A stretch of 64,000 bases of DNA. Origin: Chloroflexota bacterium (lineage in GTDB: Bacteria; Chloroflexota; UBA6077; JACCZL01). Below the pieces are notes generated by a model. The model did no database searches and was not told where the DNA came from. It worked only from the letters and a program-made list of their open reading frames with translations. Shown here in pieces: positions 22,263 to 64,000 of this stretch. The position numbers were made by a program, and so were the translations under genes. Positions within the stretch are counted from its first letter, which is position 1, and each line of letters begins with the position of its first letter. Location of the stretch: assembly GCA_020850535.1 (NCBI GenBank), contig JADZEM010000063.1, positions 1 through 64,000 of the forward strand. The letters are read 5' to 3'.

Positions 22263-23321
22263 TCAGCGACCGGCGCCAAGCCCGGCGATGTCCAGCATCT
22301 CCTGCTCGGAAAACGGCTCGATGCACACACCGAAGTGCTCACGCAGTGGGCGAACAACCAGTTCATTCGCCATCATGCTGCTGGCGATCGTCCCAGGATG
22401 GCCGGCGCCATCCTGAAGGCGGAAGTGCCGGGGATCGTTGCCCGACGTTAGTGCGTCAACGGCAACGCCTCCGACCAGCAGCTGGTACGTGCCGTCAGCC
22501 TGCTGAAGCAACGACTGCCCAAAGCGATTCATGTCCACCAGCGGTACCGTCCGGTCCGCGGCCAGGCCGGCGAGACGGCTATTCACGCGGTCGATTGCCT
22601 GGGTGACAAGACGTCGCTGGCTCGCAACTGGGTGGGACGCAATCACCTCGGGACTTTGCCCCATATCTGGGATGCTGGTCACCAGTACATGGATGTCGCC
22701 TGCGGCCAGCACCGTATCCAGCGCGACGGTGAAGTTCTCGACGATGCGGTCAAGCCTGGCATCCAACGCCGCGCCGCTCAGCGTTCCATGGTAAACCCGA
22801 GCGTAGCCACCGCTCCAGAGCTGGAAATCGTTCACGCCGATCTGGACGATCACGTACTGAACGTGTCCGGCGGCAATCTGTTGGGCGAGTCCGGTGTGCT
22901 GTCCGCCGCGGATCATATCGTCCGTCGTGGCGCCAGAGCGCGACCAGTTGTATGCGTACCCCGTCCGTCGAGGTTCACCCCAGACGCCCCACGGCCCGAA
23001 GTTCAGGCCCCGTCGTTGCACAAGCTGCTCAACCCAGTTCAGCGTGGTCGAGGCGAAGGGGCCGCCGCGCGCGTCGTCAGCACGGTACTCGTCCGAGTTG
23101 CTGTCGCCGAGCACGCCGAACCCGACATCCGGCCCGACCGGTCGGCAAGCAGCCGACGCCGCTCGCAGGGCGGTGGGTCGGACGGATGCAGTGTCTGCCC
23201 CCGCCGCGAGGTGTGCGCGGCCGGGGATGGGCAGGGGTATGCTCCCCCACTGGCTCCCGAGCAACAGCATCGTCGCTCCAACCGCGAGAAACAGCATGGG
23301 AAGCACCCTACCCAATCGCAT
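22263..23321 (-). CDS. Exported SGNH/GDSL-family hydrolase
   Basis: Predicted secreted or membrane-tethered esterase/lipase-like protein of 352 aa. A signal-anchor (VLPMLFLAVGATMLLLGS) is followed by block I with the nucleophile Ser (GVLGDSNSDEY), block III (VIVQIGVNDF), and a C-terminal block V around QDGAGHPG, where the spacing between Asp and His is one residue longer than usual. The ATG at 23321 overlaps the end of the upstream hydrolase gene by 14 bp, so it is the last gene of the NRPS transcription unit. It might trim or transfer an acyl group on the product outside the cytoplasm; this is inference. Confidence 0.82.
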   Translation of the reverse strand: MRLGRVLPMLFLAVGATMLLLGSQWGSIPLPIPGRAHLAAGADTASVRPTALRAASAACRPVGPDVGFGVLGDSNSDEYRADDARGGPFASTTLNWVEQLVQRRGLNFGPWGVWGEPRRTGYAYNWSRSGATTDDMIRGGQHTGLAQQIAAGHVQYVIVQIGVNDFQLWSGGYARVYHGTLSGAALDARLDRIVENFTVALDTVLAAGDIHVLVTSIPDMGQSPEVIASHPVASQRRLVTQAIDRVNSRLAGLAADRTVPLVDMNRFGQSLLQQADGTYQLLVGGVAVDALTSGNDPRHFRLQDGAGHPGTIASSMMANELVVRPLREHFGVCIEPFSEQEMLDIAGLGAGR

Positions 23322-24297
23322 AGTGCGCTGAGGCCATCGACTGTGGAGAGGCAGGCGTCCGCGCTTCGGTCACGAGCTGCCGCACCGCATCACGCACAAT
23401 GCGCTGCGCCGCCAGCGAGCTGAAACCATGATCGGACTCGGGAATCGTGCGGAGGCCGACACGCCCCGCGCGAACGAGCGCGTCAAAGCGTCCTGCCGTC
23501 TTCGCACTGACGTACGCCCGCCCTGGATTCTGCTCGGAGAAGACGAAGGAGACGCCGACACCACGCGCCAGCAGCCGCTCGAGATCGAGCGACTCGTGGG
23601 GGCTGGCCTCCGCGGCCTGCGACGATGTGAGCGGTGCGGACCGCCCAAGACGAGCCGCGATGCCCGCCCTCAGCCTGAACGTCGCAGCTTGCGCAGCCCC
23701 ACGTAGGATGCCGCGTATCAGGTTGCTGGAGATACGGCGATACGAAACCTGTCCGGAAAGAAAGCGGCGCCACTTCTCACGGCTTTTCATTGCTCCGTCC
23801 AGGTAGTATCGAAAGTACAGCCGTGCTGCTTTCTCCTCGCGGTCCACAGACGTCCAGTCAGGCGCGAGCGGCGACGTATAGTTCAGCGCGATCACCTGTC
23901 GAACCTGTGCAGCCTGCTGCGCAACGTAACAGGCGAGGAACGCTCCCGAACAGTGCCCGACGAGCGTGCAGGAATCCACGCCGAGAGACATCCGCATGAA
24001 GGCGAGCGCATCATCCACGTCGGCGAGCACACTGCTCTCAAGCGCCATCTGCTCGTCGCGCCGCGCGCTGTCCCCCAGACCTGCAAAGTCGAAGCGCAGC
24101 ACTGGCAACCCCATCGCCGCGAGATCACGCGCCAGACTGACATACAGTCGGTTGGGGCCTACCCGATGCACGAGCCCGGCGCTCAGCAGGAGAACGCCGT
24201 GCGAAAAGCCCGGCTGCACAGCGCCCGGTGGGTGCGTCACAACGCCGACGAGCGCCCCGCCAGGGCCAAAACGGACCACGCGCTCTGTTATGGACAC
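23308..24297 (-). CDS. Alpha/beta hydrolase, exosortase-A-associated hydrolase 1-like
   Basis: Alpha/beta hydrolase of about 329 aa. RFDFAGLGDS and the nucleophile elbow GHCSGA are intact, with a C-terminal His in ESDHGFSSL, so it should be catalytically competent. I place the start at GTG 24297 (VSITERVVRFG), which has GGAGG just upstream; an ATG at 24312 is also in frame. The gene overlaps its upstream neighbour by 10 bp. Paired genes of this type accompany exosortase and acyl-carrier gene clusters. Here they follow a TE-less NRPS and may release or edit the carrier-bound acyl chain. Confidence 0.78.
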   Translation of the reverse strand: MSITERVVRFGPGGALVGVVTHPPGAVQPGFSHGVLLLSAGLVHRVGPNRLYVSLARDLAAMGLPVLRFDFAGLGDSARRDEQMALESSVLADVDDALAFMRMSLGVDSCTLVGHCSGAFLACYVAQQAAQVRQVIALNYTSPLAPDWTSVDREEKAARLYFRYYLDGAMKSREKWRRFLSGQVSYRRISSNLIRGILRGAAQAATFRLRAGIAARLGRSAPLTSSQAAEASPHESLDLERLLARGVGVSFVFSEQNPGRAYVSAKTAGRFDALVRAGRVGLRTIPESDHGFSSLAAQRIVRDAVRQLVTEARTPASPQSMASAHYAIG

Positions 24298-25127
24298 TGG
24301 GCCTCCAGCCACATCGCGATGCGCTCCAGCGTGGGCCGTGGCACCAGCCCCTTATCGATGTCCTCGCCCCAGATCGTGAACGTGGGCAGCACGGCATACT
24401 CAACAGCGTGGCCATCGTCGCCACGTTGCCGCTGCCAGGCGTCCAGGCGAGACTCAGGCAGATTGTCGACGATCAGCAGCGGACTGGCCCAGGCTGGCGC
24501 CAAACTGAGCCGGAACGACTGAAGATCCTGCAACAGTTCGGAAGACACCGGAAATCCCAACAACTCGTGAACGGCGTCCCCGGTCGCGGCGTCTGGCACG
24601 GATGGGAAATGCTGCCAGAGCATGGCGCGATGATGCTCTCGCAGCTCGGCGAGATACTCGGCGCCGTCAAGCACCGGTTGCCAGAGCACCAGGCCGCTGA
24701 CATCATCATGTTCGGTGCTGGCTCGCATGGCCAGGGAGGCGCCGAGCCGCAGCCCGATCAGGCAGATCTGCTCAGGCATGGCTCGTTCGCGAAGCTCATC
24801 CAGCGCCGTGGCGATATCGTCGATCCAGGTTGACAGGCCGTCGCTCGCGCCGTCCCCCGCCGAGTCACCAGTGCCACGGTAGTCGAACCTCAGCACGGGG
24901 TACCCGAGTCCCGACAGCAGCTCAGCAAGCTGCCGAAAGGCTCGGTGCGACGGCAGATACTCCTTACCCCACGGATAGCAGAGCAACACGGCGGAATCTC
25001 GAGTTCGGTCCGAGCGCGGCGGATGATAGCTGCCGAAAAGCTCCTGGCCCGGCGCACCGAAGAAGAAGTACTCGGTATCGCCCGGATGCGATGTCGAGCC
25101 GATGCGTGTCAGATCGAGATCAGTCAT
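24288..25127 (-). CDS. Alpha/beta hydrolase-fold protein, exosortase-A-associated hydrolase 2-like (no nucleophile Ser)
   Basis: Alpha/beta-hydrolase fold protein of 279 aa. It has the fold signature RFDYRGTGDS, but the nucleophile elbow reads GLRLGAS, with Arg where GxSxG requires Ser. The same substitution is, to my recollection, usual in the hydrolase-2 family found next to hydrolase 1 in exosortase loci, so it may be a partner or scaffold rather than an enzyme. It lies 71 bp after the NRPS gene and overlaps the hydrolase-1 gene, forming one transcription unit. Confidence 0.78.
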   Translation of the reverse strand: MTDLDLTRIGSTSHPGDTEYFFFGAPGQELFGSYHPPRSDRTRDSAVLLCYPWGKEYLPSHRAFRQLAELLSGLGYPVLRFDYRGTGDSAGDGASDGLSTWIDDIATALDELRERAMPEQICLIGLRLGASLAMRASTEHDDVSGLVLWQPVLDGAEYLAELREHHRAMLWQHFPSVPDAATGDAVHELLGFPVSSELLQDLQSFRLSLAPAWASPLLIVDNLPESRLDAWQRQRGDDGHAVEYAVLPTFTIWGEDIDKGLVPRPTLERIAMWLEAQCP

Positions 25128-25198: not shown

Positions 25199-28100
25199 TT
25201 AGCCAGATCCGCCGGGAAGAAGCCGTCGTGCCGCGCCGAACAGACGTGAACGCAGCGCGGCCCGAGGCGCCATCACCTCCGTGGTCCCCGCCGACTCCTC
25301 GTCACGAGTTGATGTCCGCGCAGGCAGCGGCGTGGACTCGCCCTCATGGTCCGGCAGCAGGCCGCCACACGAGTCGGCGAGTTGTGCCAGCGATTGCATG
25401 AGTACGAGCGTCGGGTTCAGCTCGACACCGAGCTGTTGCTTGATGGCGGCTGCCACCTGTGCCGCCAGCAGCGAGTGTCCGCCCAGATCGACGAACGAAT
25501 CGTCGGGATCAACACGGGGGACACCGAGCGCCCGCTCCAGGATCGGCGCAAGGCGCTCCTCAAGCGGCGTCCGTAGGCGAACCACCGGCCGATCCACGCC
25601 CAGGCTGCCGAGATTGGGGACGGGCAGACTCCGGGTGTCGAGCTTTCCATTCGGCGTGAGCGGGAGGGCATCCAGCCTGACGAAAACGCTGGGCGTCATA
25701 TACTCGGGCAGCTGCCCTTTGAGGAACCGGCGCAACGCCGGCGGCGACGGGTCAGGCGCGCCAGACGCGACGACATACGCGACCAGCCGGGCGTCACCGG
25801 GGGTGTCCTCACGAACGATGACCGCCGCCTGCTTCAGCCCATCGTGGCGCAACAGCGCCGCCTCGATCTCAGGCAGCTCAATGCGGTACCCACGGAGCTT
25901 CACCTGACGGTCAAGGCGCCCCAAAAGCTCGACGGTTCCATCGGCACGATATCGCGCCAGGTCTCCCGTCCGATAGAGGGACGCACCCTCACGGCCGCTG
26001 AGGCGGTCGGGAACAAAGCGCTCAGCCGTCAGGTTCGGGCGATCGAGGTAGCCGCGTGCGAGGCCATCGCCTCCGACCAGGAGCTCGCCGGCCACGCCCA
26101 CGGGGACCGGCTGCCCGGCAGGATCGACGATGTACAACTGCTCGTTCGCAAGCGGCGCCCCGATCAAGCTGGCGGTCGCCGCGTCCTCAACCTCACGAAC
26201 CGCGGACCAGACGGTCGTCTCTGTCGGTCCGTACATGTTGAAGATGCGCGCAGACGTGAACGTCGTGACGTCGCGAACGAGCAGCTCGGTGACCGGCTCA
26301 CCCCCCAGCAAGAGCAACTGGAGGCGCTGCAGGCTCTGCGCACGCTCTTCGTCCTCCAAGATGAAGCGGAGCAGGGACGGCGTACACTGAAGAATGTTGG
26401 CGCCGTCGCGGAGGGCCCGGGTCAACGAACGGTCCTGACGTCGGCTGTCGCCGGCGTTCTGTCGCCCGGCTCGGCGCACCATCGGATCTGACACCACGAC
26501 GGTGCGGGCGCCACGGATGAGTGGCCAGAAGAGTTCGAGCAGAGCGATATCGAACGAGACGCTGGTCACCGCGCAGACCACATCCGTGGTAGCGTGAGGC
26601 AGTGCCGAGTCGAGCGACGTCAGGAAGTTGACAGCCGCTCGGTGCGGGATCATCACACCCTTCGGCCGCCCGGTCGAGCCGGACGTGTAGATCACATAGG
26701 CAAGGTCATCGGCACCGGGGTCCGTCGAACGCGCTCCGTCGGGCCGGCCCGACTCCGTCGATTCCTCGGCCTCCCCATCGCCAGGCCCGTGGAGCAGCAG
26801 CGTCCGGTCCGATGAGACTGGCAGGCTGGGGGCGGTCTCAGCATCGGTCACGATGACGGCGACGCCAGCATCTTCAAGCATCAGCCCAAGGCGCTCGGCC
26901 GGATACGCCGGATCGAGCGGGAGGTATGCGCCGCCGGCCTTCAAGATGCCCAGGAGTCCGACCACCAGCGCTTCCGTGCGCTGCACGCTCAGGCCGACCA
27001 GGACGCTTGGACCAACGCCGCGCCGCCTGAGCGCCCGAGCAAGTACCTCGGCCCGAGCTTGTAGCTCCCGATACGTGAGCTGGATGTCACCGCAGAGCAC
27101 CGCGACCGCGTCCGGTGTGCGCCGCACCTGCGCGTCGACCAGTCCGTGGATGGTCTGATCCTTCGGGTACGGGGCGTCGGTGGCGTTCCAGGTGCGGAGG
27201 ATCTTCTGTTGCTCCGAGTCCGTGAGCAGCGGCAATGCCGCGACCGGACACTCCAGGTCCAGAACGATGCCCTGAAGCAGCACCTGGTAGTGTGCCAGCA
27301 TCTGGACGGCCGTCTCACGGTCGAACAGGTCCGTCGCGTACCGGAGCGCACAGACAAACGTCTCACCGACATCGATGACATCCAGCGCGAGGTCGAGCAG
27401 GCCCTCGTCCTGCGGCACAGGAAACGGCGTCAGGCGGAAGCCGTTCGCTGGCAGATCCTGGGCCGACGCAGATGCGCCTGTCGAGTTCCGCGCGGACACC
27501 CGGCTGAGCGAGAGCATGTTGAACATCACGTCGGCGATGAGCGAGCGACGCGCATCCCGTGGTGGATTCAGCCGCTCGACGAGGAGCGGGAACGGAAAGT
27601 CCTGATGCTCGAGCGCCCCGAGGACGGTGTCATGCGTATCCTGAAGCAACTGACGAAACGATTGATCGCCTGAACAAGGCGTTCTGAGCACACTCGGACT
27701 CACGAAGTAGCCGACGGTGCGCTCAAACTCCGAACGGCCACGGCCAGCCATCGGCGCAAGCACCAGCAGATCAGTCTGACCACTGTAGCGGTAGAGCAAT
27801 GCGTGGAACGCGGCAAGCATCAGCGAATAGACCGTGACGTGCGCGCCTCGGGCCACCTCTCGCAGCCGCCCGGTCACGGCCCCGTCGAGTGAGAGAAACT
27901 CGGTTGCTCCAACGGACTTGCGCACGGCCGGCCGCGCATGGTCAAGCGGCAGGTCCAGGCGTGGAAGATCTCCCGCCAGCCGCGCAAGCCAGTACGCCGA
28001 CAGCTCGGCGCCGCGCGGCCCGCTCAACGTTGTGGCCTGCCAATGCACAAAGTCCGCGTACTTGCGAGGCACAGGCAGGGACGCCTGGTCGCCGTCCAGA

Positions 28101-28648
28101 GCACACCGGTACAGGCTGCTGAACTCGTCCATAAGGATGCCGAGCGACCAGGCGTCGATCGCAATGTGATGCGCGACGAACAGGAGCACCGCGTCGCTCG
28201 CAGCACGGCGCAGCAGATAGACGCGCAGCAGCGGGCCTTCCGCCAGACCGAACGGCACAGCGTGCAGCTCGCGTATGCGTGCGAGCAGCTCCTCATCACT
28301 CCAGGCGCCATCCTCCACACAGAGCGGGATAGACATCTCAGTGTGGACCTGCTGGAGCGGCTGACCATCGCGAATCTGGACGGTGGATCGGAGCACGGCG
28401 TGCCGGTCAACAAGCTGCCGAACGGCTTGCTCCAGCGCCGGCCCCGCGACGGTGCCTTCAATCCGTACCGCGTAGGCCACGTTGTACGCGGCGCTCATCG
28501 GATCGGACTGGTGGATGAACCAGAGCGCCCGCTGGCCGTAGGACAGCGGGTAGGCTGGCGTGTCTACCCGCTCCCGCAGCAGCTTCGCGAGCAGAGCTCG
28601 GCGCTCAATCATGGTGAGATCGCTGGCGGAGTCCTGCTGAGGGCTCAT
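25199..28648 (-). CDS. Nonribosomal peptide synthetase module C-A-PCP (predicted glycine)
   Basis: Single-module NRPS of 1149 aa. The condensation domain (about 30-460) has the active motif HHIAIDAWS (residues 160-168). The adenylation domain (about 485-990) has YTSGSTGRPKG (~656) and later YRTGDLARY. The carrier domain has DLGGHSLL (phosphopantetheine Ser ~1059). Reading the A-domain pocket by alignment to GrsA gives D-I-L-Q-L-G-M-V-W-K, close to the known glycine code DILQLGLIWK. A ~50-residue tail follows with no thioesterase or reductase domain. The ATG overlaps the stop of the upstream PKS as ATGA, so the C domain should accept that module's polyketide chain and make an N-acyl-glycine thioester. 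Release must come from a separate protein. Confidence 0.9.
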   Translation of the reverse strand: MSPQQDSASDLTMIERRALLAKLLRERVDTPAYPLSYGQRALWFIHQSDPMSAAYNVAYAVRIEGTVAGPALEQAVRQLVDRHAVLRSTVQIRDGQPLQQVHTEMSIPLCVEDGAWSDEELLARIRELHAVPFGLAEGPLLRVYLLRRAASDAVLLFVAHHIAIDAWSLGILMDEFSSLYRCALDGDQASLPVPRKYADFVHWQATTLSGPRGAELSAYWLARLAGDLPRLDLPLDHARPAVRKSVGATEFLSLDGAVTGRLREVARGAHVTVYSLMLAAFHALLYRYSGQTDLLVLAPMAGRGRSEFERTVGYFVSPSVLRTPCSGDQSFRQLLQDTHDTVLGALEHQDFPFPLLVERLNPPRDARRSLIADVMFNMLSLSRVSARNSTGASASAQDLPANGFRLTPFPVPQDEGLLDLALDVIDVGETFVCALRYATDLFDRETAVQMLAHYQVLLQGIVLDLECPVAALPLLTDSEQQKILRTWNATDAPYPKDQTIHGLVDAQVRRTPDAVAVLCGDIQLTYRELQARAEVLARALRRRGVGPSVLVGLSVQRTEALVVGLLGILKAGGAYLPLDPAYPAERLGLMLEDAGVAVIVTDAETAPSLPVSSDRTLLLHGPGDGEAEESTESGRPDGARSTDPGADDLAYVIYTSGSTGRPKGVMIPHRAAVNFLTSLDSALPHATTDVVCAVTSVSFDIALLELFWPLIRGARTVVVSDPMVRRAGRQNAGDSRRQDRSLTRALRDGANILQCTPSLLRFILEDEERAQSLQRLQLLLLGGEPVTELLVRDVTTFTSARIFNMYGPTETTVWSAVREVEDAATASLIGAPLANEQLYIVDPAGQPVPVGVAGELLVGGDGLARGYLDRPNLTAERFVPDRLSGREGASLYRTGDLARYRADGTVELLGRLDRQVKLRGYRIELPEIEAALLRHDGLKQAAVIVREDTPGDARLVAYVVASGAPDPSPPALRRFLKGQLPEYMTPSVFVRLDALPLTPNGKLDTRSLPVPNLGSLGVDRPVVRLRTPLEERLAPILERALGVPRVDPDDSFVDLGGHSLLAAQVAAAIKQQLGVELNPTLVLMQSLAQLADSCGGLLPDHEGESTPLPARTSTRDEESAGTTEVMAPRAALRSRLFGAARRLLPGGSG

Positions 28649-31600
28649 GGCGTCATCTTCGCTTCCGTCAGCATGGTGTTGAGGAGCGAATTGACCTCAT
28701 CGTCGGACAAACGATCGATCTCGGCCAGAAGGCGGAGCGCCTCCGCGTCGGCGTCAATCGGTTGGTCAACCTCCCCGCCGTCGCCGCGCTCCTCCAGTTG
28801 TTCACGCAAGACGACCACGAGGTCACGTGACGTCGGACCGGCAAGGAAGTCGCTGAGAGGCGGCGCACTGCCAAACTCTGCCTCGAGGCGGTTCCGCAGC
28901 TCGACCGCCATCAGCGAGTCGAGGCCGTAGTCGCTGAGCGAGCGGCCTGGATCGATGGCTGACGTGTCGCTCAGCCCGAGCACCGCGCACAGATGCCGCG
29001 AGACGGTTTCGGTGAGGAGGGCAGTCCGCTGCTCGTCGGATGCCTCCCTGAACGCACGAAGACGCTCGGCGGGATCGACAGCCCGACTGTCGCCGCTGCC
29101 TGCGCCGGTCGCCGTGCGAGCCACGTCGGCGAACAGCGGTGGCGCGCTCCCGGGCGGATACTGCTTCAGGAACCGAGGCCAGTCCACCGGAATGACGACG
29201 ACCTGCGCCGGCGCGCCCCGCAACATCTCACCGAGCGCCGAGAGACCTTGCTCTGGCTCGATCAGGGAGATGCCCCGACCCGTCAGACGCGTCTGCTGCC
29301 GCGTGTCCATGCGGGCCGCCATACCAGACTGCCCCCACGCGCCCCAGTTGATGCTGAGCGCAGGAAGCCCGGCGGCGCGTCGGGCATGCGCCAGCGCATC
29401 GAGGTACGCATTGCCGGCCGCGTAGGCGCCCTGGCCAGGAGATCCGAAGACCGCCGACGCTGACGAGAACAGGACGAAGTAGTCAAGGGAAGCGTCGGCG
29501 CTCAGCGCATGAAGCGCCTGGCTTCCCGCCACCTTGGGCCGCAGTACTGCCGCGAAGCGCTCAGCGTCTTGCTGCAACAGCAGGCCATCGTCGATCAGCC
29601 CCGCGGCATGGAAGATCCCGCGAAGTGGGGGATGGGAATACCGCAGCTCTGCAAAGAGGCGGTCCATCTCCTCGGGGACGGCCACGTCAACCTGACGCGT
29701 CAACACGGAAGCGCCGGCAGTGGTGAGCCGACCGATCGTCTGCTGCGCGTCCTCAGCGGGCGCCCGCCGGCCGGTCAGCACAAGGTGTCGTGCGCCCTGC
29801 TCCACGACCCAGGTCGCAAGCTGCAAGCCCAGGGCGCCGAGCCCGCCGGTGATCAGATACGTCCCGTCCTCGCGGAAGCGCGGCGTCGCTGGTATCTCGG
29901 CGTCAGCAGGTGCGAATGCGTGGATCAGAACCACCTTGCCGATGTGCCTGGCCTGCGCCATGAATCGGAAACCCGCCTCCATGTCGTCCATCGAGAAGGT
30001 GTCATACGGCAACGGCGCCAGCGTGCCGTCCGCGAGGTCGGCGACCAGGCTGGTCAGCATCTCGCCAATCAGACCGGGCTGATATACCAGCGCATCGCCG
30101 AGGTCGTACAGGTAGTACGCGACATCCGGCCGCTCATCCGCCATCCGCTCAGCGGTCCAGACGTCACGCTTTCCGATCTCCAGGAAGCGGCCACCGGGCG
30201 CCAGCGTTGAGAGGCTCTTCGGAATGAACTCCCCAGAAAGAGCGTTCAGGACGATGTTGACACCCTGCCCGCCGGTCGCCGCGCGTATCTCGTCGGCAAA
30301 GTTAAGCGACCGCGAGTCGTAGACATGCGTAACGCCCATCGCGCGCAGGAACTCGCGCTTAGCCGGGCTGCCGGCCGTCGCATGCACTTCGGCGCCCAGC
30401 TTCTGGGCGAGCCGCACCGCCGCCTGACCGACGCCACCGGCCGCGGAATGGATCAGCACGCGCTCGCCAGCCTTGAGGCCGGCAAGCTCCTGCAGCCCGT
30501 ACATCGCCGTCAAGTATGCAATTGGGATCGTCGCCGCGTCCTCAGGCGAGAGGTTTGCTGGCCGACGCGTCACCAGCTCCGCAGGCGTCACCACGAAGGA
30601 GCTGAACGCTTCGGGCGCAATCCCGAGCACGGCATCGCCAGGAACGAGCGTGGTGACGTCCTTGCCAACAGCCACCACCCGGCCCGTGCATTCCAGGCCC
30701 GGCGGCCCTGGATCGCCTGGGTACATACCGAGGACATTGAGCACGTCGCGAAAGTTGAGGCCGGTGACTTCGACTTCGATCTCGACCTCGTGCGGCTCCA
30801 GCGCACGGTGTGTCAGCGGCGCCAGCTGCATGCCGTCCAACGTGCCGCGCGCCAGGATCTCCAGACGGTACGGCTCGCCGGGCGTGCGTGACGCCGCGGC
30901 AGGCCGATCAGCGCCGACCACTGCGCGGGCCAGCCGCGCCGCGTATCGCTTCCCGCCACGCCAGGCAACCTGGGTTTCGCGATCGACAGCGTCCAGCTCC
31001 AGAATCAGAGCGGCCCAGTCGGCCGCCGCGTCCGGATCGAGATCGACAAGATGTGGATGCAGCGAGGGATGCTCGGCAGCAACGACGCGTGTCATCCCCC
31101 AGAGCGCTGCCTGCGATGCACACGCGGGTGCACTGTCCTCGACGACGGCCTGGGCGCCACGAGTGACAACCCACAACGGCGCCTGAATGTTCTCGCTGGC
31201 GGCCGCCTGCACCAGTTCAAGGAGCCACGAGAGTGCAACGGAGGGATCCCGCTCCGCCCGCTGGAGGCCATCCTGAGCGCCGGCGCCCGGCACGTAGATG
31301 AGCCCACGGATCGCCGTCGGGCCCGCCTTGAGCCGCTCGACGATGCCGGCGCGCAGGCTGCCGAACTCGCTCGTTGCCCGTGGCTGCGCCGTGCCGTCGG
31401 TATTCTCAGTCGCGAGATCACCAGCGAACGCATCCACCAGGATGCAGGCGTCTCCCCGCGCCATCAACTGCGACACCAGGTCGGCGCCGGGGCCACCGCG
31501 GCCGGATACGATGAGCCAGGCGCCATCAACAGACCCAGCACCCTCAACGGACGCGATGCCCGCCGCCTTTTCCAGCAGCGGGGCCGACCGCCATGCAACC

Positions 31601-35316: not shown

Positions 35317-35500
35317 CGGTGAGATCTTTCACGCCCTTCAAAACAGAACCGAGGTCGTCGCGAGGTACGGTGAGATGACAGGGCAGTCGCTGACGAACAC
35401 CCTGGGGCCGTCACGAGCCCGGCATTCGCCTGACCCTGGGGACCGCCTGCAAGCGAAGCCCTTGGCTGAGCCAGGCTCGCTGTGCAACACTCCGCTTCCA
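35317..35500. other. Divergent intergenic region between PKS M5 and type II thioesterase
   Basis: 184 bp separate the two divergent starts, so promoters for both directions should lie here. I found no convincing -35/-10 pair or palindrome. The thioesterase lacks a clear ribosome-binding site. Confidence 0.4.
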
Positions 35501-52010: not shown

Positions 52011-52090
52011 GCAAGCTGCTCCTGGTGGGGCGAGGTCTCGCAGAAACACCGTCTCACATGGTGGTTGCTGCGTTGTACGGATGCAGTGGT

Positions 52091-55000: not shown

Positions 55001-56554
55001 CGTGAAGCAGATATCTGCCAGGCGCGCTGGCGTGGCTTCGACCGCGCCGGGCGACAGGGTGTGCCGGTAGCGCTCCACGAGCGCCTGGAGTGCGGTGTCG
55101 GACTTCGCGGAGAGTGGCAAGATATGGAGCGGACGCTCCCGATCGGCAGGGTCGAGGCCGCTGTCTGGCGCAGCCGCCAGCACGACATGGGTGTTCGTGC
55201 CGCTGAATCCGAACGCGCTGACCGACGCAATACGGCCAGATGGTCCGGCTGGCCAGTGCTGATGGGTCGTCGGCACGGCCAGCGGGAACTGTTCCCATGG
55301 AATCAAGGGATTCGGCGTCGAAAAGTGCAGATTCGGCGGAATCTCGCCATGCCGCAGCACGAGCACGGCCTTCAGCAGGCCGGCGACGCCCGCCGCAGCC
55401 TCGAGATGACCGATGTTCGTCTTCGCCGCCCCCAGCATGAGCACCTGATCGGCGGATCGCCCCCGGCAGAGCACCTCGCCAAGCGCCTGCACCTCGATGG
55501 GATCGCCGAGCGAGGTGCCCGTGCCATGCGTCTCCACGTACCCAACATGCTCGGGAGCGACGCCAGCATCCGCGAGCGCCTCGCGGATGACCGACACCTG
55601 CGATGGTCCGTTCGGCGCTGTCAGACCGTTGCTCCGGCCATCCTGGTTGATCGCTGATCCCCGAACAACAGCAAGGATGCGGTCACGATTCGCCAGCGCG
55701 TCTGAGAGGCGCTTCAGGACAACGACGCCGCACCCTTCTCCGCGCACGTAGCCGTCGGCACGGGCATCGAAGGTCTTACACCGCCCATCCACCGCCATCA
55801 TCTGTGCCTTCGAGAAGGTGACGTTGATCTCTGGTGAGAGGATCAGGTTCACGCCGCCGGCCAGAACCAGGTCACACTCGCGAGCGCGAAGGCTCTGACA
55901 GGCCAGGTGCACCGCGGTCAGCGAGGACGAGCAGGCGGTATCGACGGTAACGGCTGGCCCCTCGAGGCCGAGCAGATACGCGATGCGGCCGGCCGCCACG
56001 CTCGGTGCATTGCCCGTCGCGAAGTACACGTCGAGACGCCCCGGATCGCGCGCGAGCATCCGTCCATAGTCGCTGTTGCCGAGGCCGATGAAGACGCCGG
56101 CCCTGGCCCCGCTCAGGCGCTCGGCTGACTGCCCGGCGTGCTCCAGCGCCTCCCAGGCCACCTCCAACAGCAGACGCTGCTGTGGGTCCATGCTCGCGGC
56201 CTCGCGCCCGTTGATCCCAAAGAACGATGGCGAGAACACGTCCACCGCATCGAGAAACCCGCCGTGGCGCGTGTACATCCGTCCGGGCGTGACAGGGTCG
56301 GCGTCGTACCACTGGTCGATGTCCCAGCGAGTGGGAGGAACCTCGGTGATGGCGTCCCGGCCAGACCGCAGCAGATCCCAGTACGATTCGAGATCGTGGA
56401 CGCCACCCGGAAGACGTAGGCCCGCGCCGACGATGGCGATCGGCTCGGTGCGCTGTTGCTCGATCTTGCCAAGACGGGCACGCAGCTCGCGAATCTCCAG
56501 GATCGCACGCTTCATCGGAGTCAACTGGTCGGCGCTGTCGATGATCGGTTGCAC
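52091..56554 (-). CDS. Type I PKS module KS-AT-cMT-ACP (no reductive domains)
   Basis: Non-reducing module of about 1487 aa (M2). The start is probably the GTG at 56554, 10 bp after the upstream stop and preceded by AGGA; longer in-frame readings lie inside the upstream gene. KS Cys208 (DTACSSS) and HGTGT are intact. AT has GHSIG (~661) but QASH (~764) instead of HAFH, again methylmalonyl-like. A C-methyltransferase (EIGAGTGGTT, ~1135; ANVVHA) follows directly, then ACP (GLDSLMAIEL, ~1399). No DH, ER or KR is present and there is no room for them. The module should leave a beta-ketone next to a methylated, possibly gem-dimethyl, carbon. The ~80 bp gap to the next gene is one of the few non-overlapping junctions in the cluster. 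Confidence 0.94.
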   Translation of the reverse strand: MQPIIDSADQLTPMKRAILEIRELRARLGKIEQQRTEPIAIVGAGLRLPGGVHDLESYWDLLRSGRDAITEVPPTRWDIDQWYDADPVTPGRMYTRHGGFLDAVDVFSPSFFGINGREAASMDPQQRLLLEVAWEALEHAGQSAERLSGARAGVFIGLGNSDYGRMLARDPGRLDVYFATGNAPSVAAGRIAYLLGLEGPAVTVDTACSSSLTAVHLACQSLRARECDLVLAGGVNLILSPEINVTFSKAQMMAVDGRCKTFDARADGYVRGEGCGVVVLKRLSDALANRDRILAVVRGSAINQDGRSNGLTAPNGPSQVSVIREALADAGVAPEHVGYVETHGTGTSLGDPIEVQALGEVLCRGRSADQVLMLGAAKTNIGHLEAAAGVAGLLKAVLVLRHGEIPPNLHFSTPNPLIPWEQFPLAVPTTHQHWPAGPSGRIASVSAFGFSGTNTHVVLAAAPDSGLDPADRERPLHILPLSAKSDTALQALVERYRHTLSPGAVEATPARLADICFTAATGRSHFEHRLAVSGSSAGEINARLTAFTAGQELPGMARGTTARPEPPSVAFLFTGHGAQYVQMGYHLFETQPTFRAALERCDAVLQPILGRSLFEILYPSDGDGSWLDQMAYGQPALFALQYALSELWRSWGVEPTVVVGHSIGEYAAACVVGLFSLEDGLRLTAARGRLLQSIPQHGAMAAVFADEGLVTTAIARHRGQVTIAAVNASDSTVISGPVAALDAVLTDLRSAGIEVRRLRIAQASHSPLVDPVVDDLVRAAADVAFRPPRLALVSSMTGQLVSEREAGRPDYWGQHLRQPVRFADAYRTVLAQRCDAFIEIGPHPVLIGTVQRADHEARGVWAPSLRRGRADWEQLLESVGALYVNGVSLDWEGFDRDYPRRRTSAPTYPWDRQRYWADWIVDAGQHRTEATDEPPVAGAAWTATVSAAERQAGLAPLDLHVDRFSEIWARMDRLATAYVVQALRSFGLFSRVGESLTLDEVMAQCRAAPTYRSLIERWLGHLVEDGLVVEVEAHYRCLQPLPAPPLSDLDREAAAVLADAPQVLDWMRRCGQSLAAVISGAESSLETLFPAGSCETVDFIYQQWSLARYFNGIVRSVVESRPRRNSGGMLRVFEIGAGTGGTTASLLPALDGWTAEYQFTDVSDFFLTRAQERFAAYGFVQYGRYDLECVPAEQGYASGSYDVVVGANVVHAARDLDAALAHARDLLSPGGLLVLYETTTHPRWMDVTTGLIEGWQRFEDAWRGNHPLLTAERWDTALRTAGFDEVLALPRSTSPAAILGQHVILARCPSAARDRLQPPASSVPGPLTARVEPPPTGSAASQAESAVSGGLQRLREMLPDERHEQLVTTVRAQVLQTLRLEPSQPLDRHLGLMELGLDSLMAIELRDRLTRMLGLERRLPATLVFDFPTIDAIASYLGGALAAPHAAPVPQQGAADRSASMAAGRTDVGSLSDDEVEALLLAKLENL

Positions 56555-56564
56555 GCTTCCGTTC

Positions 56565-59500
56565 CTATCCAGCCAGGCCAAGCTCGGCCAGCAGCACCTG
56601 CTCAGCCTCCTGGTCGGAGAGCTGCGCCAGTTCATGCACAGCCTTCGTTCGCGCAGATGCGTCCGCGGACGAAGGCGTCTTCGGGAGCTCCGCCGCACCG
56701 TCCAGGTGGTCCGTCAGCAGGTGTCCAACCAGCGCGTCGATGGTTGGGCACTCGAAGAGCAGCGTCGGGGAGAGCGCCAGTCCCAGGCCGGCAGCCAGAC
56801 TGTTTCTCAGCTCGACGGCCATCAGCGAGTCAAGCCCGAGCTCTGACAGCGGGCGGGTCGGATCGACTATGAGCGAGGGGTCGAAGTTCATGACCCGCCC
56901 TACATGCTCGCGTACGAACACCTGCACGAGGGAGCGGCGCTGGCTCGGCGGCGCATCGGCGATCCGCTGCTGCACACCCGGGGGCATGGCCTTTGACTCT
57001 TGAGCAGGGTTGGACTGCGCCAGGTCCTGGAAGAGCGTTGGCACGCCGCCGTGCGCGGCGAGTTCGCTCAGTGCGCGCTGGTTCAGCGGCAGCGCGGCGA
57101 TCTGTGGCACGTCGAGCGTGAGCGACTGCTCAAGCGCTGCGAGGCCGTCCGCAGTTGAAAAGCTGAGCAGCCCGGCATCGGATAGGCGCTGCCGGTCTTG
57201 CGAACGGAGAGACGCCGTCATCCCCGTCTCCGCCCACGGCCCCCAGTTGATGCTGAGCGCTGGAAGCCCCTGACGCTGCCGCCAGTGTGCAAACCCGTCA
57301 AGGAAAGCGTTTGCCGCGACGTAGCTGCTCTGCCCGGCCGCGCCAGTCAACGCCGCGCCGGCCGAGCAGAGGACAAAGAAGTCCAGATCACGCTCACGCG
57401 TGAACGTGTGCAGGTTCACCGTCCCGCTGAGCTTTGGTGCAAGCACCTGTGCGAAGCGTTCCCAGGTTTGCTCTTGCAGCACGCCATCGTCGAGGACACC
57501 GGCCGCGTGGATCACACCGCGAAGCGGCAGGCCGGTCTGGTCGATCAGCGCGAAGACCTCGGCAAGTTGATCCAACGCTGCCACGTCAGCCTGGCAGACC
57601 AGGACGCGGCTGCCAGCGTTTTGCAGCGCCGCGATCTCCTTGGCCGCGTGCTCCGACGGGGTGCGCCGCCCCACGAGGGCGATCAAGCCAGCGCCCTGTT
57701 CGGCCAGCGAGCGAGCGGCCGCCAGGCCTATTCCTCCGAGGCCGCCCGTGATGAGGTACGCCCCATCACCCCGCGCGGCGGCCGGGTGTTGACGCCCGCG
57801 TGAGGCGTCGGCGCACAAGACAAGCTTCCCGATGTGCCTCGCCTGGGCCATCTGGTGGAACGCCTGCCTGGCCTGTGCGAAGCGAAACGCTCGGAGCGGA
57901 AGGGGTGCGAGTGTTCGCTGGCCCACCTGATCCACGATCTCGCGCAGCGCCGCGCCGATCATCTCGGGGTCGCGCTGGCAGACCTCGCCCAGCAGAAACG
58001 GCAGATACGCGATATCAGGGCGACGTGCTGCAACGCTCTCCGGCGTCCAGATGCCACGCCGCCCGATCTCGACGAAACGGCCACGTGCAGCGACGCAGTC
58101 GATGCTCCGCGCCAACAGCTCGTCCGTCAGTGAGTTGAGCACGACGTCGACACCCTCGCCACCTGTCGCCGTCATCACCTCGCCGTAGAAGTCCGTCGTG
58201 CGTGAATTGAAGATGTGCCGCACGCCGAGATGCTGCAGGTGAGCGCGCTTCTCGACGCTGCCGGCTGTCGCGAAGACTTCTGCGCCAAGCTGCTGTGCGA
58301 GCCGCACGGCAGCCAGCCCAACGCCTCCCGTGGCCGCATGGATGAGGACGCGCTCGCCCGACTTCAGCCGGGCGAGGGTTCGCAGCCCGTACCAGGCCGT
58401 GAGGTAGGCGATTGGGAGCGTCGCCGCCTCCTCAAAGCTCAGCTCAGCGGGCTTCGGCACGCTCAAACGGGCGTCTGCCAGCACGAACGACCGGTGGCTG
58501 CCTTCCGCGACGGCGATGACCTCGTCGCCCACCCGCGGCCCGGTGACAGCGGCGCCCACCCGTACGACGACGCCAGCGCACTCGTTGCCGAGGCGGTCCA
58601 CGCCACCGGGGTACAGATCGAGGACGGCCAGGACATCTCGGAAGTTGAGTCCGCTCGCACGAACCTCGATCTCTACCTCTCCGGATCCGGGCGCACGGCG
58701 AGCGAGCGGAAGCAGGGTCAAATGGTCGAGCACACCCCTCCGTGGGGCATCGAGGTACACGGGCTGGGTGTCTGACAGGGTCCGACGCGGTCGCAGCCGC
58801 GGGCACAGGCGCTGGCCGGCGCGGAGCGCGATCTCCCGCTCGTCGCCGTCAGCCAGGAGCTCCGCCAGAAGCGCATCAACCGAGCCCATCGGATCGGCGG
58901 GATCGAGGTCGACAGCGGTCGCCCGCGTCTCCGGCCGCTCCCGGAGGATGGTCCTCGACAGTCCCCAGAGCGGCGCCTGATCGACGGCGATCTCCACCCC
59001 GTCGTTGACTGCCTGTGCCCCGCTGGTCACCAGCCAGAGCCGCGTCCCGAGATGACCGGCGAGCGCCTGGGCGATGTGGAGCGTGCTCTGGCACGCCGGG
59101 GCCTGCACCTCGACGTGCGAACTGGCTCCGGCCGCAAGCCCGTCCGGGCCGGTCCGCGGATCGAGCCCCCAGCACTGAATGATGCCGCGCCATGGCTCGG
59201 CATCCTCCTTCGCCGCACACAGAAGCGTCACCAGATGCGACGGGTTGCCAGGATCGACGGTCCATGAGCGCTGACCGTGCTGCGCCAGCGCCGAGCCCGC
59301 CGAGACCTGAACCACTGACGCACCGCGCGCCTCAAGCCTCCGAGCCAGCAGATCGCCGACGCCTTGCCGATCGGTGAAGACCAACCAGCGCCCCCCCTCG
59401 GTCAGCGTGTCCGCCCGGTCTGGCAGGATGGAGGCGGCCGGCTTCCAGTTGATCTCGTAGAACCAATCAGTCTGCGCGTGCTGATCAGAACCTGCTCGCC

Positions 59501-62500
59501 GGGCCAGTCGTTCCAACGCTTCACGCGACGCCCGCTTGAAATGCACACCCAATGCGTGGACACACAGCCGCCCGTCGGCGTCGTAGACCCAGAGATCGCC
59601 GACGAGCATGCCGGCGCGGTCGTCGTGATGCTCAAGGCGAACGTAGACCCGGACCTCTCTCCCCGGCCGTGCGGTGATGGTGAACCGCTCGATGCTCACG
59701 GGCACGAAGATCGGCTTCTCGGCTTCGTCCTCCCCGCTCGGCAGGGCAGCTACGAACGTCTGCAGGCACGCATCGAGGAGTACAGGATGAATCTGGTAGC
59801 AGTCAGCATCATCAACGTGCGCCGGCAGCACGACCAGCCCGACCGCCTGACGGTCACCATGTCGCAGCTCCCGAAGCCCGCGAAACCGATGCCCGTACGC
59901 CATCCCCTGTCGCTCGACTCGACGGTAGAACGCGTCCAGGTTCAGCGATTCCGGGCACGCCGCCTCGCCCGCGGCAATGGAGGGGGCAGCGGAGGTCTCA
60001 CCCTCACTTGGGTGCGACGTCGCCAGCTCACGGCGAAGCCGTCCACTGGCATGAAGCCGCCAGTTGCCCTTGGCCGACTGCGAATCGGCTGGAGGCGGCG
60101 CCGCGCTGAACACCTCGAAGGTCACCATCTCGTCGGACGCAGCGCGCACAATGACCTGGACGCGCTGGGGGACGCCCGATCCGAGTTCCAGGGCCTCCTG
60201 GATCAGGATGTGCTCCATCTGGAGCGGGCCAGCCCCGAACAGGTCATGTGCCGCCGCCGCTGCCTGCTCGATGTACGCGGCCGCCGGAACGACCGGAACG
60301 CCGTGGAGGCGGTGCTCATCGAGAAAGACGGGCCAGGACGGGCTGATCTGCGTCTCGAAGATCGCGCCGTCAACGATAGGGGAGTCAATCCTCCGGCCGA
60401 GCAAGGGGTGTGCGCCGCCTTGAGCCACCACAGGCAGCGACGCCGGTCGCGCTGCCTGTTCTGCCGATTCATACCAACAGCGCTGCCGTTGGAACGGGTA
60501 GGTGGGCACGCGCACAGGCCGATACCCATATGGCCGACTGAACCCAGACCAGTCTACATCGACGCCACGGACGTACAGTGCGGCCAGGCTTTCAAGCAAA
60601 GCTTGCCAGTCGTCAGCGCCCCGCCGAAGAGACGGGACGGACTGCGCCTCGCCCTCAGGCAGCGAGCGGGCAGCAGCAGCCGAGAGTGCCGGTGTGGGGC
60701 CGATCTCCAGAAACAGCTGGTGTCCCGCACGATGCAGCGCAACGACGCCATCAGCGAAGCGCACCGCCTCGCGCACCTGACGCTGCCAGTACTCGGCAGT
60801 CGGCGCCTCGCCAGCCGGCCAGAGCTGTCCGGTCACATTCGAGACCAGGGGAATCTCGGGCGGTCGATACGCGATGGACTCGGCAACGTTCCCGAACTCC
60901 TGGAGCATCGGCTCCATCAAGGGAGAGTGGAACGCGTGTGAGACGGTCAGCCGCCGATGCTTCACCGCCCCGGCAAGCAATTGCTCCAGCACGGCGTCGA
61001 GCGCACTGCTCTCACCCGAGATGACAACCTGACCAGGCTCGTTGATCGCGGCGATAGACAGACGGTCCTCGTACCCACTGAGGACAGCGCTGACATGCGC
61101 CTCGGAGGCAAACACGGCAGCCATCGCCCCGCCCGCCGGGAGCGCTTGCATGAGTCGACCGCGCGCAGCGACCAGCCGCGCCGCATCCTCAAGGCTGACG
61201 ACGCCCGCCACGCAGGCTGCCACGTACTCGCCGATGCTGTGTCCGAGCACCGCCGCCGGGACGATCCCCCAGCTTCGCCACAGCTCAGCCAACGCGTACT
61301 CCAACGTGAAGAGGGCTGGCTGGGTGTAGGCCGTCCGATCGACCAGCGCGGCAGCACCACCATCGGCGAACAGCACGTCGCGAATGGGCCGTTCCAGCAG
61401 CGGATCGAGCAGCACCGCGCACCGGTCGACGGCGTCGCGGAACACGGACTGAGATTCGTAGAGTTGTCGCCCCATCCCAGCGTATTGCGATCCTTGCCCC
61501 GTGAACAGAAACGCGACCGACGGCGCCGCCCGGCTGACCCCGTTTCCCATCACGAGGCCGGTGTCGCTGGCCGCCCCATCACCGTGAGAGAACCGAAGGA
61601 GACGGTCAGCCATCTCCGCCGGCATCTCCGCAACGACGGCGAGGCGGCGCTCGAACGAGGTGCGGCCCGCGTTGGTGGTATGGCAGATATCGCCCAGAGC
61701 AGCAGGGTCGGCAGCGGCCACGAAGGCGGCGAACTGCTGGGCCTGTGCCTTGAGCGCCTGCTCGTCTCTGGCTGACAAGGTGAGAAGCTGTCGGCTGGGT
61801 GTGAGAGGAAGGGCCGCAGGCTCCGCCAGCCCTGGCGAATACGACTCAAGAATAACGTGGGCGTTGGCGCCACCAAACCCGAACGAGCTCACGCCAGCCA
61901 GGCGCGTCCCGTCGTCGGACGTCCATGGCGTCAGTCGATCCTGGACCCGCAAGCCCAGCCGCTCATAGGGGATCTCCGGATTCGGCTCCGCGTAGTGCAG
62001 ACTCGCAGGAAGCTCGCCGTGGTGGAGCGACAACGCCAGCTTGATCAGCCCGGCGATGCCCGCGGCCGCTTCGAGATGACCGACATTGGTCTTGACCGAC
62101 CCAACGGCGCAGATGTCGCCTGCTGCCCTGCCAGCACCCAGCGCCGCACTGATGGCGTGCAGCTCGATAGGGTCCCCAAGGCGCGTGCCCGTACCGTGCG
62201 CCTCGACGTAGCTGATCCGATGCGGCTCCACCTGCGCATCAGCGAGCGCCTGGCTGATCAACGCCTGCTGCGCGACACCGTTGGGTACGGTCAGGCCGCT
62301 GCTGTAGCCATCCTGGTTGGTGGCGGACCCTCGAATGACAGCGTAGATGCGGTTGCCATCGGCTTGCGCCCGTGCCAGCGGCTTGAGCGTGACGACCGCG
62401 GCACCTTCGGCGCGCACGTAGCCGTCTGCGCGGGCGTCGCCGAACTTGCAGCGGCCGTCGGGGGCGAGGAACTTGGCGAGGCTGATCGACGTAGACGGAC

Positions 62501-63230
62501 CGAGAATGACGTTCGCGCCCCCCGCGAGTGCAAGCGAACACTCGCCGTTGCGAAGGCTGCGCACCGCCTGATGGACTGCCACGAGCGACGACGAGCAGGC
62601 CGTGTCGATCGCCATGCTCGGCCCGCGAAGGTCCAGCGTGTACGAAAGCCGATTCGCCGCGATGCAGAAGGCGTTTCCGCTGGTCACGTAGATGTCGATC
62701 AGCTCCGGGCACAGCGTCTGATCGACAACCTGGAGCTTGCCGTAGTCATTCAGGCCGATGCCGATGAAGACTCCGGTTGGACTGCCGGCAAGACGTGACG
62801 GCACGCACCCGGCGTCTTCGAGCGCCTCCCAGGCGGCTTCCAGCAGGAGCCGCTGCTGAGGGTCCATCGCTCTCGCTTCGCGGGGCGAGATGCCGAAGAA
62901 GTGCGGGTCGAACCCCGCGATGTCGTCCAGGAAACCGCCGTAGCGCGAAGGAATCTTTCCGGGAACGTTCGGATCGTCTGCATGCGTCGAATCAATCGGC
63001 CAGCGGTCCGCCGGTACCTCGGAGATCGCGTCGCGCCCATCGCGCAGCAGGTCCCAGAACGCATCTGGGCCATACACGCCGCCGGGAAAGCGGCAACCGA
63101 TGCCAACGATGGCGATGGGCTCGGATCGCGCCCGTTCGAGCTCATCGAGCCGCGACCGTACCCGCCGGAGCGCAAGCAGCGCCCGTTCCAATTGTTCTCG
63201 ATCGTTCGCGGATCGGCTCTGATCGGTCAC
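56565..63230 (-). CDS. Type I PKS module KS-AT-DH-ER-KR-ACP
   Basis: Fully reducing module of 2221 aa (M1). The start is GTG at 63230, overlapping the upstream TGA as GTGA. An N-terminal charged coiled coil (about 8-36) is a likely docking helix. KS Cys212, AT GHSIG (~663) and HAFH (~765, malonyl), DH HRLHGVPVVP (~973) and DACLQ (~1153), ER HAATGGVGLAA (~1634), KR GGLGGIG (~1830) with LDD (B-type) and Tyr ~1970 (SYVAANAF), ACP Ser ~2136 ([10 protein letters not shown]). All motifs look functional, so a saturated unbranched two-carbon unit is predicted. It follows the partial module at the right edge. Confidence 0.95.
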   Translation of the reverse strand: MTDQSRSANDREQLERALLALRRVRSRLDELERARSEPIAIVGIGCRFPGGVYGPDAFWDLLRDGRDAISEVPADRWPIDSTHADDPNVPGKIPSRYGGFLDDIAGFDPHFFGISPREARAMDPQQRLLLEAAWEALEDAGCVPSRLAGSPTGVFIGIGLNDYGKLQVVDQTLCPELIDIYVTSGNAFCIAANRLSYTLDLRGPSMAIDTACSSSLVAVHQAVRSLRNGECSLALAGGANVILGPSTSISLAKFLAPDGRCKFGDARADGYVRAEGAAVVTLKPLARAQADGNRIYAVIRGSATNQDGYSSGLTVPNGVAQQALISQALADAQVEPHRISYVEAHGTGTRLGDPIELHAISAALGAGRAAGDICAVGSVKTNVGHLEAAAGIAGLIKLALSLHHGELPASLHYAEPNPEIPYERLGLRVQDRLTPWTSDDGTRLAGVSSFGFGGANAHVILESYSPGLAEPAALPLTPSRQLLTLSARDEQALKAQAQQFAAFVAAADPAALGDICHTTNAGRTSFERRLAVVAEMPAEMADRLLRFSHGDGAASDTGLVMGNGVSRAAPSVAFLFTGQGSQYAGMGRQLYESQSVFRDAVDRCAVLLDPLLERPIRDVLFADGGAAALVDRTAYTQPALFTLEYALAELWRSWGIVPAAVLGHSIGEYVAACVAGVVSLEDAARLVAARGRLMQALPAGGAMAAVFASEAHVSAVLSGYEDRLSIAAINEPGQVVISGESSALDAVLEQLLAGAVKHRRLTVSHAFHSPLMEPMLQEFGNVAESIAYRPPEIPLVSNVTGQLWPAGEAPTAEYWQRQVREAVRFADGVVALHRAGHQLFLEIGPTPALSAAAARSLPEGEAQSVPSLRRGADDWQALLESLAALYVRGVDVDWSGFSRPYGYRPVRVPTYPFQRQRCWYESAEQAARPASLPVVAQGGAHPLLGRRIDSPIVDGAIFETQISPSWPVFLDEHRLHGVPVVPAAAYIEQAAAAAHDLFGAGPLQMEHILIQEALELGSGVPQRVQVIVRAASDEMVTFEVFSAAPPPADSQSAKGNWRLHASGRLRRELATSHPSEGETSAAPSIAAGEAACPESLNLDAFYRRVERQGMAYGHRFRGLRELRHGDRQAVGLVVLPAHVDDADCYQIHPVLLDACLQTFVAALPSGEDEAEKPIFVPVSIERFTITARPGREVRVYVRLEHHDDRAGMLVGDLWVYDADGRLCVHALGVHFKRASREALERLARRAGSDQHAQTDWFYEINWKPAASILPDRADTLTEGGRWLVFTDRQGVGDLLARRLEARGASVVQVSAGSALAQHGQRSWTVDPGNPSHLVTLLCAAKEDAEPWRGIIQCWGLDPRTGPDGLAAGASSHVEVQAPACQSTLHIAQALAGHLGTRLWLVTSGAQAVNDGVEIAVDQAPLWGLSRTILRERPETRATAVDLDPADPMGSVDALLAELLADGDEREIALRAGQRLCPRLRPRRTLSDTQPVYLDAPRRGVLDHLTLLPLARRAPGSGEVEIEVRASGLNFRDVLAVLDLYPGGVDRLGNECAGVVVRVGAAVTGPRVGDEVIAVAEGSHRSFVLADARLSVPKPAELSFEEAATLPIAYLTAWYGLRTLARLKSGERVLIHAATGGVGLAAVRLAQQLGAEVFATAGSVEKRAHLQHLGVRHIFNSRTTDFYGEVMTATGGEGVDVVLNSLTDELLARSIDCVAARGRFVEIGRRGIWTPESVAARRPDIAYLPFLLGEVCQRDPEMIGAALREIVDQVGQRTLAPLPLRAFRFAQARQAFHQMAQARHIGKLVLCADASRGRQHPAAARGDGAYLITGGLGGIGLAAARSLAEQGAGLIALVGRRTPSEHAAKEIAALQNAGSRVLVCQADVAALDQLAEVFALIDQTGLPLRGVIHAAGVLDDGVLQEQTWERFAQVLAPKLSGTVNLHTFTRERDLDFFVLCSAGAALTGAAGQSSYVAANAFLDGFAHWRQRQGLPALSINWGPWAETGMTASLRSQDRQRLSDAGLLSFSTADGLAALEQSLTLDVPQIAALPLNQRALSELAAHGGVPTLFQDLAQSNPAQESKAMPPGVQQRIADAPPSQRRSLVQVFVREHVGRVMNFDPSLIVDPTRPLSELGLDSLMAVELRNSLAAGLGLALSPTLLFECPTIDALVGHLLTDHLDGAAELPKTPSSADASARTKAVHELAQLSDQEAEQVLLAELGLAG

Positions 63231-64000
63231 GGGAGACTCCTGGCGTCCAGCGACTCAAGCTCTCGATCGAGAAGATCGCGGAGCTCGTCGTCAGACATCT
63301 GGCTGAAGTCGGCGTCGGCGCTCGCATCGGGCTCGGGTGTCGTCTGCGGACACTCGGGCTCAGGAAAGAGCCGCTGGACAAGAAACGTTGCGAGAGTGAC
63401 CGGCGTCGGGTAGTCAAAAGCCACCGTCGACGGCAAGGTGATGCCAAGGCGGGTTTCGAGGCGTTGCCGCAACTCGATCGCGGTCAGCGAATCCAGGCCC
63501 ATGGTGAAGAAGCCACGGTGCTCGGCGATGGTGTGGGTGGGTCGATACCCCATCACCCTGGCAGCTGCTTCAACAACGGTGTCGGTGAGCAGCCGCACAC
63601 GGTCCGAGGGCGCAGCCACCTCGAGCTGCTGTCGCAGCCGCGCAGCATCGGCGTGTTCCGACGTGCGCCCGGACGCAGGCTCTCCGCGAACCGCGCCCCG
63701 GTGCACACTGTCACGCTCGTCGACTGATGTTGTCTCACCTGGCTGGCGCGCAACCCTGGCCGCACCGGCGTCAGCACCGGCCGCAGCAACCTCGCCTCCA
63801 GGAAGCTCGCAGAAAAGCGCCGCGCTGGCTGCTGCTGGATAGGCGGCGCGCCAGGCATCTACGTCGAACGGCATGACGACAGCGGAGACGGCGCCCGCAT
63901 CAAGAAGGTGTCCCATCACCCCGAGCGCCTGCGTCGGATCCAGGCTGCCAATGCCTCGCGCAACGAGTCTCTCGCCGCGGTCAGCATGCGCGGCTGCGAG
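63227..64000 (-). CDS. C-terminal part of a type I PKS module (KR end and ACP), truncated by the window
   Basis: The reading frame is open to the right edge of the window. The visible part begins with the end of a ketoreductase domain (RLVARGIGSLDPTQALGVM... then VVMPFDVDAW, the usual KR tail). A ~90-residue linker and an ACP follow (GFFTMGLDSLTAIELRQ, phosphopantetheine Ser near 63490). The C-terminal tail is acidic (DDELRDLLDRELESL) and probably docks to M1, whose GTG overlaps the stop codon. Domains to the left of the KR and any loading module are outside the window. Confidence 0.9.
   Translation of the reverse strand, partial: LAAAHADRGERLVARGIGSLDPTQALGVMGHLLDAGAVSAVVMPFDVDAWRAAYPAAASAALFCELPGGEVAAAGADAGAARVARQPGETTSVDERDSVHRGAVRGEPASGRTSEHADAARLRQQLEVAAPSDRVRLLTDTVVEAAARVMGYRPTHTIAEHRGFFTMGLDSLTAIELRQRLETRLGITLPSTVAFDYPTPVTLATFLVQRLFPEPECPQTTPEPDASADADFSQMSDDELRDLLDRELESLDARSLP

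Follow-up and report, generated by a model that had tools for sequence, protein, structure and literature searches.

The modules of epothilone (module 8), yersiniabactin (HMWP1) and disorazole (DisA) that contain a C-methyltransferase (cMT) domain make gem-dimethyl groups, and they share with the third PKS module (M3) of the assembly line described here the KS-AT-cMT-ACP layout that leaves the ketone in place. These systems differ from it in having ring-forming or thiazole modules, and they are not close in sequence, HMWP1 matching with 36.5% over 84% of M3. Among solved structures, the M3 cMT comes closest to that of CurJ from the curacin pathway (E 4.5e-54), which shares its His and Glu, and the DisA cMT ranks second; the KS-AT of CurL is among the nearest to the fourth module (M4). 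However, the GNAT loading, halogenase, cyclopropanase and sulfotransferase parts of the curacin system are absent from this line, and the curacin module order is presumably different as well. The PKS-NRPS loci on the plasmids Nostoc pNLP2 and Brasilonema pBOCT1 contain an M3-like PKS (43-46% identity over 90%) but have wholly different neighbours, namely a haloperoxidase, P450 or HlyD/ABC exporters, and no M4/M5-type chain. These best cyanobacterial plasmid matches were rejected as the same cluster because their gene order is unrelated.

Another likeness is found with the XrtA/PEP-CTERM exopolysaccharide loci, where a homologous hydrolase pair and an AsnB-like amidotransferase occur together with GT4 and Wzx. 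The present line differs in that there is no exosortase, its proteins stay under the equivalog cut-offs, and PKS modules take the place of a lone ligase and ACP. To our knowledge, few natural products are known from the Chloroflexota. The preliminary description of the locus had recognised no known pathway with its module order, and no characterised cluster with that order was found among PDB chains, plasmid records and open-access papers; literature searches on Chloroploca polyketides, a Chloroflexota PKS family and gem-dimethyl cMT modules turned up nothing relevant. As far as these sources show, the pathway is undescribed. The line itself belongs to the familiar modular PKS-NRPS type, of which it is a variant.

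Gene and module content of the locus

The window, that is, the whole stretch of 64,000 nucleotides that was analysed, covers positions 1-64000 of a contig of 74831 bp; the remaining 10.8 kb were recovered as well. Its minus strand encodes, at 22263-64000, a C-A(Gly)-PCP module together with five complete PKS modules and the terminal part of another, in large ORFs that are all intact, with zero frame breaks. Pfam detects KS, AT, DH, cMT, ER, KR and ACP domains across the ORFs of 28645-63230 (-), with KS and AT E-values of 1e-60 to 1e-103, and C-A-PCP at 25199-28648 (-). Modules are numbered in their order of synthesis, and their assignments below rest on Pfam and active-site motifs.

22263..23321, minus: GDSL/SGNH hydrolase; signal-like segment at the N-terminus; orthologue within the Chloroploca cluster
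23308..24312, minus: abh1, alpha/beta-hydrolase with Cys in the nucleophile position (GHCxG), candidate releasing enzyme; closest to hydr1_PEP (TIGR03100), under its cut-off
24288..25127, minus: abh2, alpha/beta-hydrolase lacking a nucleophile (GLRLGA); hydr2_PEP (TIGR03101) is the closest family, with a score under its cut-off
25199..28648, minus: NRPS C-A-PCP, specificity code DILQLGMVW (glycine type), without TE domain
28645..35316, minus: M6, KS-AT(malonyl, HAFH)-DH-ER-KR-ACP, fully reducing
35501..36283, plus: type II thioesterase (GHSLG), antisense to the operon, between EamA and M6
36326..37234, minus: EamA-family (DMT) transporter (Pfam); its orthologues occupy the same position in the Chloroploca, L.E.CH.71, CFX2 and AMX57 clusters
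37231..44097, minus: M5, KS-AT(IASH, non-malonyl type)-DH-cMT-KR-ACP
44094..52049, minus: M4, KS-AT(malonyl, HAFH)-DH-cMT-ER-KR-ACP
52091..56698, minus: M3, KS-AT(QASH, non-malonyl type)-cMT-ACP, non-reducing
56565..63230, minus: M2, KS-AT(malonyl, HAFH)-DH-ER-KR-ACP, fully reducing
63227..64000 (whole gene contig 63227-69040), minus: C-terminal part of M1, first of the line, KS-AT-degenerate DH-KR-ACP; KS Cys-His-His present, AT GHSMG/DVASH, DH without catalytic His
contig 69100-71049, upstream of M1: AsnB-like (asparagine-synthetase-like) protein
contig 71063-72529, upstream of the AsnB-like gene: Wzx flippase
contig 72522-73886, upstream of Wzx: GT4 glycosyltransferase

In the order of synthesis, M1 to M5 are followed by EamA, M6, the NRPS, the two alpha/beta-hydrolases and the GDSL hydrolase. 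From GT4 to the GDSL gene, neighbours overlap or lie at most 71 bp apart, with the exception of the gap that holds the thioesterase. The true start of M3 is probably directly past the M2 stop (56565). Because it overlaps the plus-strand thioesterase, the minus-strand ORF at 35313-36329 is regarded as a reading-frame artefact and not as a gene. KS and ACP sites are intact in every module; each module has its own AT, the KS Cys-His-His and ACP DSL residues are in place and A and PCP domains are present, as in a cis-AT modular type I PKS-NRPS hybrid. In the C domain, the HHxxxDG motif reads HHIAIDA in the window copy, whereas DG is kept in the other five copies.

The preliminary description, a heavily C-methylating PKS-NRPS with a glycine-type terminus, is borne out by the Pfam domains and the A-domain code, as are its counts of at least six PKS modules (one partial), one NRPS module and three cMT domains, which fall in M3, M4 and M5. 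Its module order stands for M3 (non-reducing, with cMT) and M4 (cMT with a DH-ER-KR set). M5 was called KR-only but contains a DH, and M2 and M6, called reducing, both carry the full DH-ER-KR set and are fully reducing. The partial module at 63227-64000 is a genuine module end: after rightward extension, the M1 protein has 1937 aa, reaches contig position 69040 and comprises the whole module. Conversely, the loading module that had been placed outside the window did not appear there, as the rightward contig (to 74831) adds only the rest of M1, the AsnB-like protein, Wzx and GT4, and ends 0.9 kb upstream of the GT4 gene. No dedicated loading domain (KSQ, CoL, FAAL or GNAT) is present in contig 63227-74831 or at the start of the related cluster of Candidatus Chloroploca sp. 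Khr17, and a search for a starter-loading enzyme adjoining the Khr17, L.E.CH.71, ANAER1 and AMX57 clusters found none. The KS of M1 retains its Cys.

Two further elements of this genome may be recorded here. A c-di-AMP riboswitch (Rfam RF00379, 56.7 bits) lies at window position 8242-8394 (plus), upstream of an MFS transporter gene (8462-10147). A second PKS/NRPS locus (G000:C19:50182-74332, continuing to 81571) encodes PfaA-like and PfaD-like proteins, a FAAL-ACP-KS-ACP-C-A-PCP protein, a PPTase, a TEII and a KASIII-like protein.

Related clusters in other Chloroflexota

The host belongs to the Chloroflexota, as does Herpetosiphon aurantiacus DSM 785, a same-phylum relative that was recognised by its identity with plasmid CP000876. 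A first genome-wide scan with M3 peptides gave zero matches, and a search of 150 relatives with the M3 sequence gave only generic matches of 39-54%, none in the same family or order. The AsnB-like protein, which passed the threshold of E 1e-80 in four of the 301 genomes from the phylum, proved to be a better marker and led to the Khr17 cluster. This cluster, on contig NZ_RYFF01000026.1, is collinear over 14 genes with 35-56% identity to the window, in the order Wzx-AsnB-TE-M1-M2-M3-M4-M5-EamA-GDSL-M6-NRPS-abh2-abh1. The type II thioesterase is thus located between AsnB and M1, and a GT4 gene was not found by the cluster.

Long related clusters with the M3-M4-M5 core, M6, NRPS, abh2 and abh1 occur in L.E.CH.71 and ANAER1, and contig-cut ones in CFX2 and AMX57, with M6, NRPS, abh2 and abh1, and with M3, M4 and M5 where sequence is present. 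The early modules vary: L.E.CH.71 has additional ones. ANAER1 contains two M6-like modules, both on the opposite strand. One more Anaerolineales MAG (L083) encodes an M1-type module along with AsnB and TE. An AsnB-like protein and Wzx accompany the PKS in all six genomes (window, Khr17, L.E.CH.71, ANAER1, CFX2 and AMX57), and GT4 does so in all of these except Khr17. Since the same line, accompanied by genes for sugar transfer and a flippase, recurs in other members of the phylum, it represents a conserved pathway and not a one-off cluster. AsnB-like and Wzx genes (52-62% identity) are also found in MAG.66, close to a contig end, and in L.E.CH.5, where AsnB is cut by the contig end.

In a KS tree, the domains group by module position, which indicates that the line has been inherited as a unit. 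M1 and M5 each form a single clade (100/100 and 99/98), M3 (89/77) and M4 (90/75) each form one group with weaker support, and M3, M4 and M5 jointly form one group (87/97); the M3-M4-M5 core is therefore old and moves together. For the AT tree, the genomes are abbreviated W (window), K (Khr17), A (L.E.CH.71), B (ANAER1), C (CFX2) and D (AMX57). A single clade (96/98), separate from the M4 and M6 ATs, contains W_M3 along with the ATs of M3 and M5 from A, B, D and K; W_M5 does not clearly join it.

The AsnB-like protein has as its nearest solved relatives the hydroxyamidotransferase of PDB 7ylz and asparagine synthetase B (E 3e-27 and 5.6e-13). It differs from these at Cys2 of the class II glutaminase site, which is Ser, invariant in the seven aligned homologues and two further PKS-linked ones; on this residue it is not a glutamine-dependent asparagine synthetase B. 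In the seven aligned homologues, moreover, the SGGLDS motif reads SGGLDG.

A proposed pathway and its alternatives

From domain content, catalytic residues, collinear conservation and gene linkage we infer the substrates, gem-dimethyl groups, release, glycosylation, export and biological role that are set out below. On balance, we hold it to be rather probable that a complete cis-AT PKS-NRPS line, inherited as a unit in the Chloroflexota, makes a methyl-branched acyl-glycine that is released in trans and then glycosylated or amidated and exported. M1 would take up an acyl starter delivered in trans, probably extend it with methylmalonate and leave a hydroxyl, and M2 would add a fully reduced C2 unit. 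M3 would then incorporate an alkylmalonate-type unit, C-methylate it and leave the ketone, giving a predicted C(=O)-CMe2. M4 would use malonate, with one C-methylation and reduction to CH2-CHMe; however, in the KR of each of the five M4 copies examined the catalytic Tyr is replaced by His, and full reduction is therefore not certain. M5 would C-methylate and ketoreduce another alkylmalonate-type unit, with CH(OH)-CMe2 as the predicted outcome, or an alpha-methyl alkene if the DH works. After a further fully reduced C2 unit from M6, the NRPS would cap the chain with glycine. This residue is predicted from the established Stachelhaus codes; the codes of Khr17 and ANAER1 look similar to that of the window, but the terminal code differs among the clusters, DLTKIGEVG of L.E.CH.71 looking Asn-type and those of CFX2 and AMX57 matching no assigned residue. 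Since the NRPS has no TE domain, a separate protein, most likely abh1, would have to release the chain or pass it on in trans, and the type II thioesterase would serve for editing; the abh1 Cys (GHCxG) and the missing abh2 nucleophile (GLRLGA) recur in six clusters. The most likely course after that is glycosylation or amidation of the product and its passage across the membrane, by means of GT4, Wzx and the AsnB-like ligase. The linkage of these genes suggests an exported, glycosylated polyketide-amino acid, but this is the weakest step of the proposal, being drawn from linkage alone.

The gem-dimethyl centres at M3 and M5, and the single methyl at M4, are predicted from the combination of non-malonyl-type ATs with cMTs that have intact motifs: ExGxGxG and the His/Glu pair that aligns with the CurJ cMT are conserved throughout the 13 cMT domains, as expected of C-methyltransferase modules. 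The AT motif, a rule of thumb for substrate, is HAFH in M2, M4 and M6 of every cluster, VDVA[SA]H in M1 and [QIVT]A[SA]H (xA[SA]H) in M3 and M5 of every cluster, and, on established AT signatures, loss of the Phe from HAFH-type motifs points to methylmalonyl or a similar extender. Nevertheless, there is an appreciable chance, if the lesser one, that M3 and M5 load malonyl-CoA, that their cMTs add a single methyl so that no gem-dimethyls arise, and that the M5 DH yields an alpha-methyl alkene. The M3 and M5 ATs retain GHS[VIAL]G, which is usual for malonyl enzymes. Retention of the catalytic His and Asp in the M5 DH of every orthologue also counts against the proposal, since formation of a gem-dimethyl product does not call for them. 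Such malonyl loading is at odds with the loss of HAFH from these ATs everywhere while it is kept in M4, likewise a cMT module, and in M2 and M6, and with the placement of most M3 and M5 ATs in a clade of their own.

It could be that AsnB, Wzx and GT4 are a polysaccharide cassette next door, as Chloroploca asiatica, C. mongolica and Viridilinea have a Wzx-AsnB-GT4 set without PKS nearby. We would give some credence, short of preference, to an ordinary secreted small metabolite such as an antibiotic or signal, exported by EamA or Wzx, with GT4 and AsnB tailoring it or unrelated, and no envelope lipid or polysaccharide involved. The architecture is typical of modular PKS-NRPS metabolite clusters, EamA lies within the operon, the distribution is patchy, and the variation in the terminal A code and the early modules resembles that of specialised metabolism undergoing diversification; yet the linkage of AsnB-like and Wzx genes survives rearrangement and strand changes across lineages, which would be surprising for unrelated genes. 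We also considered, and dismissed as highly improbable, that the cluster is part of an exosortase (XrtA/PEP-CTERM) exopolysaccharide system. The nearest NCBIfam families do point that way (hydr1_PEP for abh1, hydr2_PEP for abh2, and eps_aminotran_1 as second-nearest for AsnB), but with scores far under the curated cut-offs (105/168, 100/203 and 131/817 bits, respectively), and exosortase (PF09721) is absent from all eight genomes searched.

Collinearity between distant lineages, the fixed core of three cMT modules and the fixed AT pattern argue that the product of the proposed pathway is under selection and that this is not a stray cluster. Candidatus Chloroploca sp. Khr17 provides a named starting point for its isolation. 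As a more speculative and rather unlikely extension, it may be envisaged that this Chloroflexota family joins a C-methylated polyketide-amino acid to a sugar or amine by a glutaminase-less AsnB-type ligase, to be flipped by Wzx as an envelope glycoconjugate. If the glycosyltransferase, flippase and ligase do act on the product, modular PKS chemistry would be linked to cell-envelope or polysaccharide export.
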